DNA from: Marinilabilia rubra
GTDB lineage: Bacteria > Bacteroidota > Bacteroidia > Bacteroidales > Marinilabiliaceae
Length of the DNA stretch: 64,000 nucleotides
NCBI RefSeq assembly: GCF_003121985.1
Contig: NZ_QEWP01000001.1
Coordinates: 310,001-374,000 of the forward strand
Direction of reading: 5' to 3'
The notes below the pieces were generated by a model. The model was not told the DNA's origin. It made no database searches and was given only the letters and a program-made list of their open reading frames with translations. This document shows, one piece after another, positions 503 to 60,600 of this stretch. A program made the position numbers and the translations under genes. The first letter of the stretch is position 1. Each line of letters begins with the position of its first letter.

Positions 503-2002
503 TTATTCAAACTCTATCAGTTTCTTTATTTTTCCTGGTTGTGCCCAGTTCATTGTGCCTTCCATTCTTGTAGATAAGAGATATTCTTCAATGGCGGGAT
601 TTTTTAAGGCTTTCAAAATTTTATTGGCTTCCGCTTTGTTTTTTGCCGGAATAAATGCCTGAAGAGCCTGGTTGGCTTGCCAGATACCTGAAACAATAAT
701 GGGGCAAAAACATTTACGTCCATATGCTTCCCATACCACCTTGTATGAGGCATAGTTGTAGCTGCCTACACCCAGAAGAGCCCACCATCTCCCCTTCTTT
801 ATCCATCCATTGATGAGGGTTCCTTTGCGGCCTGTCAGTTTTTGACGATGGTTTTCCAAATAGCTTTTCAGTTCGGGATAATTGTTAAGTTCATCTTCAG
901 AGAGAGGCATTCCTTTGCTGTCGTGTGGTATTAAAACCCAGGCTACCGGTTTTTCAGTTTGATTCTTGAAGTTGACGGATTTTAACAGTGGAAAAACAAA
1001 CTTAGTTGGAAGTTTCGTTGTCCCATCCACCATACAGAAATCTTCGTTTATTTTTTGGCAGATGTTGAAAAAAAAGACATTGTTTGCTCCGCAGGTGTTG
1101 AGGCCTTGTCTGGGCATTGAATCCTTTGAGAGTTTTATTTTGTTGAAGGAGTTGAGTTTTTTCTCCTGGTGTTTTTTGTATATGCTAAGGGGAGCGGTTG
1201 GGGTTCCAACCGGCGCTGAGAGATAGTCCTCCCATTTGTTTTGTTTAAAAACGGAGTACTTTATTGGGAAGTCGGGTGCTTGATTGCGTGAAAAATGAAC
1301 CAGTCCGTAACGGGTAGAAACTTTCTGAAAAACTGCCTCCTTGTTGAAGTCAAACACCCGGATGGGAGCGAAACTTGTTTCATGGATTTTGTAAGTTCTG
1401 AACGGCTGATGCGCCCCGTCGTTTAGCAATAGTGATAAAGGCATAAAGAAATAAGCATCGCCACCTTCTTTTAAAAAACCGGCAATTGAGACCTGAATAA
1501 TAAGTGCGGCGATATCTATTCGTGAACCGCCTAAAAGGAGATTTCGTTTGTTGTCAATCAGGTCAAATTTGGCAAACAGAGGCTTTATCTTCTGTTTATA
1601 GATATCCGGTAAATCTACGTAATTTTGCCAGGGTGGGTTGCCCAGAATAATATCAAATGTTTGTTCCGGCAAATCTAATAGGTCCTTGTTCCAGAGATTT
1701 TGAGACATGTCTAGTTTGTATGTCTCACGGAATATGGAAAGTGCCTTTTTGTGATGGCTGTAGTTTAACTCGTTGCCGTATAAGTTTTGGGTGGGGAGTT
1801 CTTGGATGGCGTATCCTTTTCTTTGACCATGTAAGATCAATGCTTCAAGCAGATGGCCATGCCCCATGGTGGGATCGAATATGGTGGCCCCTTTCATCCA
1901 TTTTCTGAAAATGTTGAATTGAGAGATGGCGAATTCACCCCATTTAAGAGGGGTGAAGATATCGCCAATTTTCAATTCTTTTTCAACTTCGGATGTTTTC
2001 AA
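503..2002 (-). CDS. N6-adenine DNA methyltransferase (Eco57I/TaqI type), solitary
   Basis: Predicted 499-residue SAM-dependent DNA adenine methyltransferase. SAM-binding motif I is DPTMGHGHLLEA near residues 44-55, and the catalytic motif IV is NPPW near residue 121, the form used by N6-adenine enzymes. The C-terminal half, with a WWALLGVG segment and KVVWEAYGRK, resembles the TaqI-like target-recognition domain. No nuclease motif or separate restriction gene is visible in the window, so it may be an orphan methylase. The only in-frame start is TTG at 2000-2002, because a TGA lies two codons upstream; it begins 20 bp after the metH stop, which suggests co-transcription. The N-terminus reaches motif I at the usual distance, so the gene looks complete. 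Recognition sequence cannot be deduced. Confidence 0.8.
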   Translation of the reverse strand: MKTSEVEKELKIGDIFTPLKWGEFAISQFNIFRKWMKGATIFDPTMGHGHLLEALILHGQRKGYAIQELPTQNLYGNELNYSHHKKALSIFRETYKLDMSQNLWNKDLLDLPEQTFDIILGNPPWQNYVDLPDIYKQKIKPLFAKFDLIDNKRNLLLGGSRIDIAALIIQVSIAGFLKEGGDAYFFMPLSLLLNDGAHQPFRTYKIHETSFAPIRVFDFNKEAVFQKVSTRYGLVHFSRNQAPDFPIKYSVFKQNKWEDYLSAPVGTPTAPLSIYKKHQEKKLNSFNKIKLSKDSMPRQGLNTCGANNVFFFNICQKINEDFCMVDGTTKLPTKFVFPLLKSVNFKNQTEKPVAWVLIPHDSKGMPLSEDELNNYPELKSYLENHRQKLTGRKGTLINGWIKKGRWWALLGVGSYNYASYKVVWEAYGRKCFCPIIVSGIWQANQALQAFIPAKNKAEANKILKALKNPAIEEYLLSTRMEGTMNWAQPGKIKKLIEFE

Positions 2003-2022
2003 GATTCAATAGGTTAAGACGT

Positions 2023-5000
2023 TTACTTGTCTGCCAGATTGGTGGGGATCCACTTTTCAAACTCCTCGGGAGTCATACCCTTACGGCTTGCAATATCTTT
2101 AACCTGATCGCTTTTTACTTTTCCCACACCAAAGTAAATGGCATCGGGATGAGCCAGATAGAGTCCGCTTACCGAGGCGTTGGGGTACATGCTGAAATGT
2201 TCGGTGAGGGTGATTCCGGCATTCTTTTCAACTTCCATGAGATCGAAAAGCAAACTTTTTTCACTGTGATCGGGACAAGCCGGATATCCCAGTGCAGGTC
2301 TGATACCACGGTAACGTTCTCTTACGAGGTCATCATAATTAAACTCTTCATCGGGATTGTATCCCCAGAATTCTTTTCTCACTCTGAAATGCATCAATTC
2401 AGCAAAAGCTTCAGCCAGCCTGTCTGCCAGTGATTTTATCAGTATGGCATTGAAGTCATCCTGTTGCTCCTCAAATTTCTTTGCCCATTCTTCAGACCCT
2501 TCTCCGGCGCTTACGGCAAAACCACCTATGTAGTCGGGAGTGCCTGAATCTTTTGGGGCTACAAAATCAGCCAGTGAGTAATAATGTTTTTTACCTTGTT
2601 TTTTCTGCTGCTCCCTCAGAAAATGGAAAGTTGTGGAGAGCTCTGTCCGCTGTTCATCGGTGTAAACCTCAATGTCGTCGCCAACGCTGTTAGCCGGGAA
2701 AAGCCCTATTACAGCATTGGGTTGAATCATTTTTTCTTCCACAATCTTCTTGAGCATTTCCTGGGCATCGCGCCAGAGCTTCAGAGCTTCAGTGGCTTTG
2801 GCTTTGCTGCTTTCCGAATTAAAATTGCTAAGCCATGCTTCTTCCGATGCCTTATCGGTCACCTTTTCAATGCCCCGGTAATTTCCGGTCAGCCGCCAGG
2901 CATGGAAGAAGAATGTCCAGTCGATGAATGGAATTATTTCCTCTACCGGGTAGTCTGAAAAGGTTTTGATGCCGAGAAAACTTGGTTTTTTTACCGGAGC
3001 ATCTTTCCAGTTGGTCTCCCACTTATTCTTTCTGGCTTCTTCAATGCTTAAATATTCAACCGCCTTTTTATTGGCATTGGCATTTCTGAGTTTTTCATAT
3101 TCCTGACTAATGCTGTCTACATAGTTTCGATGTTCCTTTTTTGAAAACAGAGAACCCACTACCTGAGCACTCATAGATGCGTCTTTTACATAGAGAACGG
3201 GGCCTGAATAAAAAGGATCTATTTTAACTGCGGTATGAACTTTTGAGGTTGTAGCCCCACCTATCAATAGTGGTTGCTTCATACCTCTTTGTTCCATTTC
3301 CCGGGCAACATTGCTCATCTCTTCAAGCGAAGGCGTAATCAAACCGCTCAAACCAATGATATCAGCTTCCTGTTCAACGGCTTCACTGAGTATTTTCTCA
3401 GCCGGAACCATCACGCCCAGATCAACTACATCGTAATTGTTGCAGGCAAGAATGACTCCCACTATGTTTTTTCCAATATCATGGACATCGCCTTTGACGG
3501 TAGCCATCAGTACTTTCCCTTTTTTTGTATTGGCATTTCCGGAAGCTTTTTTCTCTTCTTCGATGAAGGGTTCCAGGTAGGCTACCGCCTTTTTCATTAC
3601 CCTCGCCGTTTTTACCACCTGGGGTAGAAACATTTTTCCGGAACCAAAAAGGTCTCCCACTATGTTCATTCCATCCATTAAGGGTTGCTCAATGATGTCG
3701 AGTGAAAAATCGTACTTGCTGCGGGCCTCTTCCAGATCTTCTTCGAGATAATCGGAAATACCCCTGACCAGACAATGATGTAAGCGTTCCTCAAGAGGTT
3801 TATCCCGCCAGGTTTCCTTCTGGATGACTGCCCCTTCTTCTTTTTGTTCTTTAAGGGCTTCAGCTTTTTCAATAAGTCGTTCAGTGGCATCTTCCCGGCG
3901 ATTGAGCACCACGTCTTCAACCAGTTCAAGCAAGTCGGCAGGAATCTCATCATAAATTTGCAACATTCCGGGATTTACAATTCCCATATCCATGCCTGCT
4001 TTTATGGCATGGTACAGAAAAACGGCATGCATGGCTTCGCGGACCTGGTTGTTGCCCCTGAAGGAGAATGAAAGGTTGCTGACGCCCCCGCTTACTTTGG
4101 CGTGGGGCAGATTTGTTTTGATCCATTTGGTAGCTGCGATGAAGTCTACTGCATAGTTGTTATGCTCCTCAATTCCCGTTCCAATAGCCAGAATGTTGGG
4201 GTCGAAAATAATATCTTCCGGGGGGAAGTTTACCTTTTTGGTAAGCAATTCATAAGCTCTTCCGCATATTTCTCTCCGCCGTTCGAAGGTGTCGGCTTGG
4301 CCCTTTTCATCGAAGGCCATTACAACCACTGCGGCACCAAAATCTTTAATGCTTTTGGCCTGATGCAAGAATGGTTCCTCTCCCTCTTTCAGACTAATGG
4401 AGTTAACAACTGCTTTACCCTGAAGGCATTTCAGCCCTGCTTCGAGTACTTCCCATTTTGAAGAGTCTACCATCACAGGCAAAGAAGCAATGTCTGGTTC
4501 GGCTGCCATCAGATTGAGGAACGTGACCATCTCTTTTTTCGCATCCAGCATGGCATCATCCATGTTAACGTCGATGATTTGTGCGCCGCCCTCTACCTGG
4601 TTTTGCGCAACAGAAAGAGCTTCTTCATATTTTTCTTCCCTGATGAGGCGGGCAAATTTACGAGACCCGGCCACATTGGTGCGTTCACCTATGTTGACGA
4701 AATTAGTGGTCTGCTCCATTACCAGGGCATCTAATCCGGAGAGCCTGGTTTTGGTCTCTATTTCTGAAGGAATGTGGGGCGTTGCTTTACGGATGTATTG
4801 CGAAAAGGCCGAGATGTGTTCGGGGGTGGTTCCGCAGCACCCACCAATGATATTTACTAAACCCTGGTTTAAATATTGAAAAATTTTTGGAGCCATTTCA
4901 TCAGGTGTTTCATCGTATTCCCCAAACTGGTTGGGAAGTCCGGCATTGGGATAGGAGCTGATGAAATGGGGTGTTTTTTCGCCCAGTGTTTTTACATATG

Positions 5001-25450: not shown

Positions 25451-25630
25451 TGTATTGTATTCTTTAACTTTTTCTGTTTTTATTGTTTCGTTTAAACAGG
25501 AAATATCATTTATCGCAGATGCAGCGAGCATTGAACATTGAAGTTTTAGAGCTGTCGTATGAGTTGCCATCCGCCGATAGGGAGAGTAATGCTATTTTCA
25601 TTGGCCCAATGTTTTAGATAGATTTTAGGT

Positions 25631-26437
25631 ATGAATAATTTTTGGCAAAGAACCATTACCGGATTTTTAGTTGTAACTGCAATTATTGTAGGCCTTTGGT
25701 GGCATCCCCTTGCATATATGACCATTTTTGCAAGTGTTGTGATGCTTGGTATGTATGAGTTTATCAGAATGATTGAAGGATTGGAAACCAAAGTTCGCGT
25801 GTTCTGGGCTTTTGCAATCGGGCTTTTTGTTTACTTTAGTTCTTTCCTGATTTTTTATGCGCATATACAATCTCGTTGGTTGATTATAATTGTTCCTCTG
25901 GTTGGAGGAGTGTTTGTTTCCGAATTGTACTTTAAAAACAAGAACTCTCTTTTAAATATCGCCACCACATTAATAGTACCCCTTTATGTGGCATTGCCCT
26001 TTGCTTTCTTGCATCACTTAGCTTTTTGGAGCGGCGATTATAGCTATAAGTTGTTATTAGGGTTTTTTTTGATGATATGGGGTAATGACTCCGGTGCTTA
26101 TCTGGTAGGTTCTTTAATTGGACGTAAAAAACTTTTCCCCAGTGTTTCACCAGCTAAAAGCTGGGAAGGCGCCATTGGCGGATTAGTATTTGCATTTGGA
26201 ATAGCAGCCTTTAACTTCTATGTGATTGATGCATTGAGTTTGGTTGACTGGATTGTAATAGGCGCCATTGTTTCTGTTCTGGGAACTTATGGCGATTTAA
26301 TAGAATCTATGCTAAAAAGAAGTGTCAATATCAAGGACTCCGGAAGTATGCTCCCCGGACATGGAGGAATTCTTGATAGATTTGATGCTGTATTTTTCTC
26401 AGCTCCTGCTGTAAGTTGTTATCTTTTGTTTTGTTAA
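25631..26437 (+). CDS. cdsA: Phosphatidate cytidylyltransferase
   Basis: 268-residue polytopic inner-membrane enzyme making CDP-diacylglycerol from phosphatidate and CTP. The signature near the C-terminus, SMLKRSVNIKDSG followed by PGHGGILDRFDAVF, fits the family pattern S-x-x-KR-x4-KDxx-x2-PGHGG-x-DR-x-D. The upstream KSWEGAIGGLVFAFG segment is also conserved. About eight hydrophobic helices are visible. Followed after 36 bp by psd, the two genes encode successive parts of phosphatidylethanolamine synthesis; pssA, between them in the pathway, is not in the window. Confidence 0.95.
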   Translation: MNNFWQRTITGFLVVTAIIVGLWWHPLAYMTIFASVVMLGMYEFIRMIEGLETKVRVFWAFAIGLFVYFSSFLIFYAHIQSRWLIIIVPLVGGVFVSELYFKNKNSLLNIATTLIVPLYVALPFAFLHHLAFWSGDYSYKLLLGFFLMIWGNDSGAYLVGSLIGRKKLFPSVSPAKSWEGAIGGLVFAFGIAAFNFYVIDALSLVDWIVIGAIVSVLGTYGDLIESMLKRSVNIKDSGSMLPGHGGILDRFDAVFFSAPAVSCYLLFC

Positions 26438-58509: not shown

Positions 58510-59286
58510 ATGGACCAACAACTGACTATAGTAAAAGTAGGTGGCAAGGTTTTGGAGAACCGCGAAACGTTGAGTGTTTTTCTGGATGATTTTACGGCTT
58601 TACCGGGAGCCAAAATTTTGGTACATGGAGGGGGGCGTTCAGCCACAACCATGGCTCAGCGTTTGGGGCTTGAAACCAGAATGGTTGAAGGAAGAAGGAT
58701 TACAGATGCCGGGATGTTGGAGGTCGTTACAATGGTCTATGGAGGGCTGGTTAATAAAAACGTAGTGGCAGGCCTTCAAGCCAGAGGAGTTAATGCTTTT
58801 GGCGTAACAGGTGCTGATTTTAACCTGATTAAAGCGCATAAAAGAACTGGTGCTGAAATCGATTATGGCTTTGTAGGTGATGTGGACGAAGTGAATCCGG
58901 AATCTTTGGCAGGTCTCGTTAAGCAGGAAATTGTTCCTGTTGTTGCTCCTCTTACACATGATGGAAGTGGTAATCTTTTAAACACAAATGCTGATACCAT
59001 TGCCTCCTCACTCGCTGTTAGTTTTGCGCAAAGCTTTGATACTAGTTTGGTTTATTGCTTTGAAAAGCCAGGCGTTCTGATTAATCCTGAAGACGACAAT
59101 ACGCTTATTCCTTATTTAAATCGTGAATTATTTGATATGTACCGGGAGGAAGGCATAATTGCTGAAGGAATGGTTCCTAAGCTGGAGAATGGGTTCAACT
59201 CTCTTGCCAATGGTGTGCTGGAGGTTGTTATTACTAATATTGAAGGGCTTTCAATTCCCGGTAGAGGCACAACTCTGGGTGAGTAA
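58510..59286 (+). CDS. argB: N-acylglutamate kinase
   Basis: 258-residue amino acid kinase. The N-terminal VKVGGKVLENRETL (lysine- and glycine-rich phosphate-binding loop), LVHGGGRSATTMAQRLGLE and GVNAFGVTGAD are the family's conserved parts; the ATP site is KLENGFNSLANGVLEVVI near the C-terminus. It phosphorylates the acylated glutamate. Length is the short feedback-insensitive size seen without the N-terminal helix found in arginine-inhibited enzymes; regulation by arginine is therefore less likely. It ends 234 bp before argE, where a highly structured leader lies. Confidence 0.92.
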   Translation: MDQQLTIVKVGGKVLENRETLSVFLDDFTALPGAKILVHGGGRSATTMAQRLGLETRMVEGRRITDAGMLEVVTMVYGGLVNKNVVAGLQARGVNAFGVTGADFNLIKAHKRTGAEIDYGFVGDVDEVNPESLAGLVKQEIVPVVAPLTHDGSGNLLNTNADTIASSLAVSFAQSFDTSLVYCFEKPGVLINPEDDNTLIPYLNRELFDMYREEGIIAEGMVPKLENGFNSLANGVLEVVITNIEGLSIPGRGTTLGE

Positions 59287-59359: not shown

Positions 59360-59487
59360 TTTGCACTCAGAAATTATTCTGTTGAAATGAATGTTGTTTT
59401 TGAGTGCAAAACGATGTAAAGAGCATGAATTAAGTACATCGTGAGTTTCATTCGGTCAATGGATTAACCAAATATTGATCGAATGAA
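59360..59487 (+). ncRNA. Three consecutive hairpins in the argB-argE interval, candidate structured RNA
   Basis: Hairpin 1: TTTGCACTCA (59360-59369) with TGAGTGCAAA (59401-59410), extendable to 15 pairs with two G-U pairs. Hairpin 2: ACGATGTA (59411-59418) with TACATCGT (59435-59442). Hairpin 3: TTCATTCGGTCAAT (59447-59460) with ATTGATCGAATGAA (59474-59487), 14 pairs of which one is G-U. They abut with 0 and 4 nt between them, and none is followed by a T-run, so they are not terminators. The element ends 33 nt before the argE ATG. Confidence 0.6.
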
Positions 59488-59520
59488 GAAAACGTATCTC
59501 CCGTCATAAATTAACTAAAA

Positions 59521-60600
59521 ATGTTTCTAATGAATCAACATTCTTATATCTCCGACTCTATTGAACTGCTCAAAAGTATGATTGACATTCAATCATTTAG
59601 TCGTGAAGAAAAGGATGTTGCTGATTTTATTGAACAATTTCTGAAAATAAGAGGACTCTCCCCCCGACGAAAGGGCAATAACATTTGGGTGATTTCAAAG
59701 CATTATTCACAGGATAAACCTACTGTATTATTAAACTCCCACATAGACACTGTTCGCCCTTCTTCCGGTTGGACTTATTCACCAACCAGGTCAACTATTG
59801 AGAGTGACAGAATTTATGGTTTGGGGAGCAATGATGCAGGGGCATCGGTTGTCTCTTTGTTGGCCCTGTTTAGAATTCTTGAAGAAGAAGAGCAGCCCTG
59901 TAATTTTATTTTCTCTGCTACTGCCGAAGAGGAGATTTCAGGAGATGGTGGTGTGGCCTCTATTCTTGATGAACTTTCACCTGTTGATTTGGGTGTTGTT
60001 GGGGAGCCCACCCGTATGCAGATGGCAGTGGCTGAAAAGGGGTTGATGGTCCTCGATGGGGAGGTGATGGGTAAAAGCGGTCACGCAGCCCGCAATGAAG
60101 GGATAAATGCTATTTATCAGGCGTTGTCTGTCATTGATTGGTTTAAAAACTTTGAATTTTCCAAAAAGTCCGATTTTCTGGGTGATGTTAAAATGACTGT
60201 CACCGGTATTGAAGCCGGCTCACAGCATAATGTTGTTCCCGACTCCTGCAAATTTATGGTGGATATACGGGTTAATGAACATTATCAAAACCGGGAGCTG
60301 TTTGAATTGATTCAGCAGCAGGTGAGTTGCGAATTGACGGCCCGCTCATTCAGGCTTAACAGCTCTTTCATTCCCGTCGATCATCCTTTAGTTAAACGAG
60401 GAGAGGAATTGGGGTTGGAGAAATATGGTTCACCTACCACTTCAGATCAGGCACGAATGCCATTTCCTACAATAAAGATAGGACCGGGAGATTCGGCGCG
60501 ATCGCATACTCCAAATGAGTATATTATAGTTTCAGAAATAATTGAAGGCGTTCAAATTTACAAGGGATTACTTGAAGGATTGCATATTAATTCAAAGTGA
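59521..60600 (+). CDS. argE: M20 family deacylase, predicted acylornithine/acylcitrulline deacylase
   Basis: 359-residue zinc dipeptidase-type enzyme. The metal-binding motifs are LLNSHIDTVRPSSGW (first His/Asp), YGLGSNDAGAS, and FSATAEEEISGDGG with the catalytic glutamate; the lid-domain MAVAEKGLMVLDGEV and GKSGHAARNEG are present. It removes the N-acyl group to free citrulline or ornithine; with a Bacteroides-type ArgF' the expected substrate is N-succinyl- or N-acetylcitrulline. It has its own 234-bp leader with three hairpins and starts at ATG 59521 (MFLMNQHSY). It is separated from argH by 325 bp. Confidence 0.87.
   Translation: MFLMNQHSYISDSIELLKSMIDIQSFSREEKDVADFIEQFLKIRGLSPRRKGNNIWVISKHYSQDKPTVLLNSHIDTVRPSSGWTYSPTRSTIESDRIYGLGSNDAGASVVSLLALFRILEEEEQPCNFIFSATAEEEISGDGGVASILDELSPVDLGVVGEPTRMQMAVAEKGLMVLDGEVMGKSGHAARNEGINAIYQALSVIDWFKNFEFSKKSDFLGDVKMTVTGIEAGSQHNVVPDSCKFMVDIRVNEHYQNRELFELIQQQVSCELTARSFRLNSSFIPVDHPLVKRGEELGLEKYGSPTTSDQARMPFPTIKIGPGDSARSHTPNEYIIVSEIIEGVQIYKGLLEGLHINSK

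Follow-up and report, generated by a model that had tools for sequence, protein, structure and literature searches.

A hairpin cluster upstream of argE in Marinilabilia rubra as a probable copy of a mobile repeat targeting ATGAA

What are three hairpins, standing back to back in front of a gene of an arginine cluster, likely to be: a leader RNA that regulates this gene, or a piece of something that happened to come to rest there? The question is raised by the gap between argB and argE in a 64,000-nucleotide stretch of Marinilabilia rubra (contig NZ_QEWP01000001.1, positions 310,001 to 374,000 of the forward strand; hereafter the window, whose numbering is used throughout). The original prediction put forward a regulatory RNA of the arginine pathway and kept a small mobile hairpin element as its last alternative. 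It is the latter that was borne out, by an empty insertion site described below. We consider it very probable that the feature is an old copy of a non-autonomous, PATE/REP-like mobile hairpin repeat of the Marinilabiliaceae, which targets ATGAA. Old, degenerate and one among a great many, the argE-gap copy is ordinary by itself; the tie of the repeat family to start codons is what deserves the attention of specialists.

59382–59487 (+): degenerate copy of the dispersed, ATGAA-bounded hairpin repeat (covariance model R1, BLAST matches to other copies)
59483–59487 (+): right-end ATGAA of this unit (sequence)

Dispersal and insertion sites of the repeat

The window copy is matched over its full length by R1 (model positions 1–101, 59.2 bits, E 2e-9), a model built from 36 seed copies, the window copy included (entered as 59387–59487). 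Its subtype reads AGTGC..AAAGAGCATGAA..CATCGTGAG; at its left end the copy has TTGAA. The hairpin region, used as a query against the own genome, brought up two further copies, and relatives gave more, partly head-to-tail. Many dispersed copies, which the original prediction had named as the mark of a repeat element, are indeed what exists: a repeat of about 100 nt is spread through the Marinilabiliaceae, and its copies stand before unrelated-looking genes. In a census with R1 at E ≤ 0.01, at most 150 candidates were scored per genome, from 923–3533, so that the counts are lower bounds, and seed copies match the model by construction. There were at least 30 matches in the own genome (G000), 44 and 45 in G001 and G002, 146 in Marinilabilia salmonicolor (G003) and 121 in G004. 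All of the 150 scored candidates matched in each of Anaerophaga thermohalophila Valhall (G016), Thermophagus xiamenensis (G021) and G041; the latter we infer to be A. thermohalophila DSM 12881, one unit agreeing in coordinates (C148:7286–7386 with locus L136). Twelve other Marinilabiliaceae genomes had 0 to 64 each. In 1.16 Mb of Thermophagus, a hidden Markov model (HMM) found 139 matches, 65 of which cover the full length.

Exact matches to a gapped pattern of the 3′ hairpin numbered 5 in the own genome, 1 in G003, 17 in G016 and 48 in G021, with none in G001, G002 and G004; the reversed pattern had zero matches in these seven genomes. A similar pattern, run over the GTDB genomes, gave 84 stretches. 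Among the 80 listed, 73 lie in T. xiamenensis and two A. thermohalophila genomes, one in M. salmonicolor, and six are singles in other taxa (L104, L111, L132, L158, L170 and L176), which are perhaps chance matches, perhaps distant relatives; the unlisted ones are L184–L187, of which L187 was used in the right-end, triplet and consensus sets below. The exact pattern had no match in viral contigs, and one Thermophagus unit compared by BLASTN with plasmids and phages had none either. As far as its open-access part could be consulted (subscription papers were not covered), the literature gave no description of the repeat.

That the repeat inserts next to ATGAA was read base by base at a site that is empty in one Anaerophaga and filled in the other: DSM 12881 has ...GACAAGAAAG-ATGAAACTATCAG, and Valhall has ...GACAAGAGAG-unit-ATGAAACTATCAG, with the unit starting ATGAA. 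The pattern is thus flank-ATGAA-gene against flank-ATGAA-unit-ATGAA-gene; in Thermophagus, a different unit stands at the start of the same gene. Arrays run head-to-tail, with ATGAA shared between neighbouring units, and in the 1.16 Mb of Thermophagus this motif is present at 88 of 110 left ends and at 63 of 82 right ends. Other gene starts also differ between close relatives. At pheT there is one unit in Valhall and an array in DSM 12881, at aroQ there are units in both, and at neither gene is there any in Thermophagus, G000 or G003. Units precede sucC in Valhall and DSM 12881, while in G000, G002 and G021, over the printed sequence, the gene begins at the same ATG with no unit visible. At these three genes the unit-free orthologues start at the corresponding ATG. 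The dxr start carries unit sequence in Valhall, DSM 12881 (degenerate) and Thermophagus, and none in G003. Upstream of the units at pheT and aroQ there remains a promoter-like TATTTTTGC, which, from its likeness to the Bacteroidota consensus, may be a promoter.

Unit structure and the hairpins of the argE gap

A typical unit extends from ATGAA to ATGAA over roughly 100 nt and holds two stems, X and Y. The consensus of the 36-copy alignment reads, in its 5′ part, ATGAAACGAGCATG(g/a)CAA..TTG.CACAA.AGAACATGTATAA...CATGCGAGTTCCAT-YNG- and, after YNG, ..CCAATAA.TTAAATAAATTTTATA-CNR-ATGAA. Stem X joins AAC-GA-GCATG to CATGC-GA-GTT, its tandem G-A being kept in 31 of the 36 rows, and stem Y joins CATYNG to CNRATG, so that the ATG of the right end is itself paired. 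The alignment has near-terminal hairpins and no terminal inverted repeats. Among 117 units sampled without requiring complementarity, the Y triplets are Watson-Crick in 102, in four versions (TCG/CGA 62, CAG/CTG 21, CCG/CGG 14, TAG/CTA 5). In the 36 aligned copies, 94.6% of the pairing cells can pair, compared with 90.1% in shuffles; cells changed on both sides with pairing kept number 25 versus 7.8 in shuffles, and at most one when the structure is slid; and the covariation score is 0.187 versus 0.100, two positions of stem Y covarying between copies. Pairing therefore matters to the repeat family, whether as RNA or as DNA. The covariation that had been proposed as a check is present among dispersed copies and not among argE leaders. 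The argument that tolerance of G-U pairs speaks for RNA fails, because the stems of the family hold 15 A-C cells (G-T on the other strand) and 13 G-T/T-G cells, hence no excess of the latter. A coding unit was considered and rejected: the frame of the left ATG is not kept, and its stops are scattered, most often at codon 5 (at least 50 of the 117 units).

Some units carry 98–348 nt of extra loop sequence (loci L119, L138, L169, L114 and Thermophagus contigs), made of other palindromic repeats in Anaerophaga and of a recurring GGCAGAAG-rich stretch in Thermophagus. The loops of L077 and L049 hold a further hairpin-like stretch (TTTGATTTCTC..CGGCT..GCCGCT), perhaps another small repeat.

The three inverted repeats of the argE gap are present where they had been claimed, at 59360–59487, their arms having been checked directly. 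The features of the gap and its borders are as follows.

59360–59410 (+): hairpin 1, perfect 10-bp arms 59360–59369/59401–59410
59411–59442 (+): hairpin 2, perfect 8-bp arms 59411–59418/59435–59442
59447–59487 (+): hairpin 3, the family's stem Y, perfect 8-bp arms 59447–59454/59480–59487
58510–59286 (+): argB (acetylglutamate kinase), the upstream gene (TIGR00761 over cut-off)
59530–60600 (+): ArgE/DapE-family deacylase gene (likely start 59530)

The 181 nt around the hairpins fold at −46.9 kcal/mol, versus −28.8 ± 3.7 in 200 dinucleotide shuffles (z −4.86). When the 128-mer is shuffled 2000 times, a perfect inverted repeat of 10 bp occurs in 1.6% of the shuffles and one of 8 bp in 20.5%; the trio is nevertheless beyond chance, because three or more perfect 8-bp repeats appear in only one of the 2000 (0.05%). 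Yet the 128 nt are not the single element that they had been taken for. The repeat unit begins at 59382. Because hairpin 1 has its left arm outside the unit, on the upstream side, this hairpin is no feature of the family; a comparison of the arm with an inverted half-unit, of which it might be a relic, gave no significant match (shuffle fraction 0.32). In the other aligned copies the arms of hairpin 2 have not been preserved. Hairpin 3 is the stem Y of the family, lengthened; of the 14-bp arms with one G-U described for it, the perfect part is 8 bp, and the roughly 14–15 pairs, G-U included, are those of the fold. The distance of 33 nt between the element and the ATG of the deacylase gene also needs correction: in three congeners (G001, G002 and G003) an ATG aligns with 59530, where the query of the comparison began, which makes 59530 rather than 59521 the likely start and leaves 42 nt between the end of the unit and this ATG. 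The name argE is taken from the neighbouring arg genes; against ArgE/DapE family models the gene scores below the cut-offs.

Right ends at start codons

The window holds a second copy, and its right-end ATG is the start codon of a gene.

25519–25635 (+): second, weaker repeat copy (R1 25.7 bits, E 0.0095)
25631–26437 (+): cdsA-like gene, phosphatidate cytidylyltransferase (NF008635, below its cut-off)

How common this is was counted in 129 distinct units with complementary Y triplets (a requirement that did not apply to the 117 units above), 31 of which are followed by another unit. In 45 of the 98 non-tandem ones, the right-end ATG opens a frame of at least 60 codons, or one still open at the end of the locus; many of these frames begin what look like signal-peptide-like or recognisable proteins. 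Among background ATGAA sites that are non-genic or in start regions, 140 of 548 are starts (named-genome loci; L111, L132, L158, L170 and L176 were left out, and L104 was outside the range), which gives an odds ratio of 2.5 for the units (p 9e-5). The Thermophagus right ends were classified over the 1.16 Mb with a simple codon-model gene caller: among 82, 24 are tandem, 19 lack ATGAA and 39 are usable. Start codons make up 18 of these 39, compared with 288 among 1187 background sites (odds ratio 2.7, p 0.004). All 39 fall outside genes, whereas 3570 of 4757 background sites are intragenic. Non-genic ATGAA sites are thus start codons in 24–26% of cases. The two sets overlap in Thermophagus, where only these 39 right ends were classified.

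A plain mobile repeat targeting ATGAA, together with selection against broken genes, accounts for most of this pattern; the excess at start codons could reflect tolerance, accessibility or use. Insertion into ATGAA would keep the start codon of the gene, since the unit ends in a new ATGAA, and this would be why such sites are tolerated. Small mobile repeats tend to be regarded as extragenic clutter. In this family the target is a common gene start, so that an insertion spares the protein and would give the mRNA about 100 nt more of structured leader. Natural pairs with and without the unit inside one family offer a test of how transposition rewires translation. We may go further and speculate about an element that homes to start codons: the hairpin would insert exactly between promoter and AUG, turn the old start into a short upstream open reading frame (ORF), supply a new AUG within its own 3′ stem and stack in tandem, and so become a structured leader, variable in copy number, for the translation of many genes, some of them probably essential. 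This bolder proposal is a tentative one, which we think has a real but minor chance of being right.

Proposed mode of movement and rival explanations

The absence of terminal inverted repeats, the fixed target, the subterminal stems and the lack of a gene are what make the repeat resemble PATEs and the IS200/IS605-type elements. It would move as single-stranded DNA, stem Y (CATYNG/CNRATG) would act like the pairing between guide and cleavage site in IS200/IS605-type elements, and an enzyme acting in trans would mobilise the repeat. Insertion 3′ to a fixed short target without variable duplication, as in these elements, was found at the one empty site. PATEs of Haloquadratum (PMC3119063) and Halanaerobium (PMC7290912) are likewise short, lack terminal inverted repeats and have near-terminal palindromes; they too form many heterogeneous copies without a gene of their own, and their palindromes receive other small elements (PMC3119063, PMC7290912). 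Unlike PATEs, the Marinilabiliaceae repeat has ATGAA at both boundaries, often on start codons, and no related IS605-type transposase was found for it among the Y1 loci examined. With the REP, BIME and REPIN elements, moved by RAYT (TnpA-REP; PMC3733652), it shares dispersed extragenic hairpins, arrays and covarying stem subfamilies. It differs in that the Y1 genes whose flanks were read adjoin repeats other than the unit, and the unpaired GTAG or CGTC tag that marks REPs beside the stem is not found in the unit consensus. The TAACTGA heptamer repeats of Beggiatoaceae, Cyanobacteria and Bacteroidetes are also intergenic, concentrated just upstream of start codons and show no pattern in the functions of the genes; they are, however, simple heptamers that end upstream of the start codon without containing it, and the part of the source consulted describes no stem-loop unit (PMC4679880).

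Several results weigh against a mobile repeat of this kind. The first concerns the enzyme. R1 was run over 33 Y1 loci, a first set of 16 and a second of 17 with two of them overlapping, in incomplete drafts of eight genomes, and found units (E ≤ 0.01) at three, in none of which units bound the Y1 gene on both sides. At L093 the unit lies about 1 kb from the Y1 gene, at L306 two units lie about 300 and 430 nt upstream, and at L103 (G004 contig C56) a near-consensus unit at 1372–1473 stands directly beside a truncated Y1 transposase gene; with over 100 copies in G004 we ascribe this adjacency to chance, although it is possibly the relic of a partner. Flanks were read at two loci of the first set, L093 and L103 (a Y1 fragment), and at ten of the second (at L303 the upstream side only); L091 and L095 were read for their ORFs, and the remainder of the 33 were scanned with R1 only. 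The Y1 genes with flanks so read adjoin other repeats, mostly GC-rich palindromes, and no transposase carrying unit ends was found among the Y1 loci examined. Among these loci a RAYT/IS200 partner found no support, the flanks that were read carrying other repeats and no unit pair bounding a Y1 gene. Nor is there a bias for the lagging-strand template, with 79 matches on the C-rich strand versus 60 on the G-rich one. The covariation comes from paralogues, and by two counts it is weak: pairs changed on both sides are 5 versus 3.2 (reached in 32 of 500 shuffles), and pair types 11 versus 10.2 (reached in 191 of 500). The stems are possibly kept for RNA and not for transposition. A clean empty site was read at one locus only; ATGAA is missing at 19 of 82 right ends and 22 of 110 left ends in Thermophagus; 53 of the 98 non-tandem right ends are away from an ORF start; and the argE-gap copy is not at a start codon, its right-end ATGAA opening an ORF of 8 codons only (59483–59509).

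One reason for the missing enzyme could be that a dedicated one was lost, as has been suggested for CGTC repeats (PMC3733652), and this may hold here by analogy; a strand bias is not seen in all IS605 sets (PMC7290912). A search for an autonomous copy, with a gene between the unit halves, in the gathered loci and the 1.16 Mb of Thermophagus gave as clear cases only the variants with loops of 98–348 nt; left and right ends about 1–5 kb apart were listed as pairs, the sequence between them being left unread.

What else could the hairpins be? A riboswitch or leader particular to argE would fit the strong fold and the place of the hairpins, ahead of a gene that belongs to an arg cluster. It is contradicted by the comparison of 25 genomes, the own one, 20 with a clear ArgE and four (G025, G027, G029 and G033) dropped for weak paralogues; Anaerophaga and Thermophagus lie outside this set. 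A unit is present near argE in none of the 20 relatives, so that of 21 argE loci only the own one has it, and homologous copies stand before unrelated genes. At the Rfam gathering threshold the window has one tRNA, located elsewhere, and no match to the hairpins. We thus regard a regulatory RNA of the arginine pathway as extremely improbable, and the case is a caution that hairpins clustered before a gene can mimic a riboswitch. Self-cleaving ribozymes, prompted by the tandem arrays and a CTGATGA-like string, were included among the Rfam RNAs tried, with nothing over threshold in the window; five array loci gave six Rfam matches at E ≤ 1 (E 0.07–1), all far below gathering scores.

A broader possibility is that the unit serves the host as a dispersed translational switch: a movable 5′ leader, retained at start codons because stem Y masks the AUG and thereby governs the translation of many genes. 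The enrichment of start codons among right ends by a factor of 2.5–2.7 (odds ratio, relative to non-genic ATGAA sites), the covariation of stem Y next to the AUG, and the unit sequence at the dxr start in three genomes would all agree with it, as would the units of pheT and aroQ, which lie between TATTTTTGC and the ATG and therefore would be transcribed. However, no relation is apparent among the downstream genes, close species differ in which units they have, and the copy in front of argE is away from the start codon, which leaves this explanation unlikely, although a leader role in addition to mobility is possible. Another candidate is a classical miniature inverted-repeat transposable element (MITE) of a DDE transposon, or a tyrosine-recombinase cassette, for which ATGAA would be the target duplication or the crossover sequence. 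In its favour are the head-to-tail arrays and the ATGAA at either side of the unit, but the unit lacks terminal inverted repeats, and the same ATGAA recurs at most sites, unlike ordinary target duplications; we hold it to be quite unlikely.

Three of the Y1 loci deserve mention on their own account. In Thermophagus a single Y1 gene was found (L093, G021 contig C53, 1246–1788), and the palindromes on its flanks are its own and differ from the unit. At L091 (G016 contig C333) a Y1 transposase gene, 1396–1857, lies between res-like and mod-like genes, presumably those of a type III restriction system. At L095 (G016 contig C335, 1–3279) a stretch resembling a Y1 transposase is embedded in frame in a long stop-free ORF that looks like a DNA methyltransferase.
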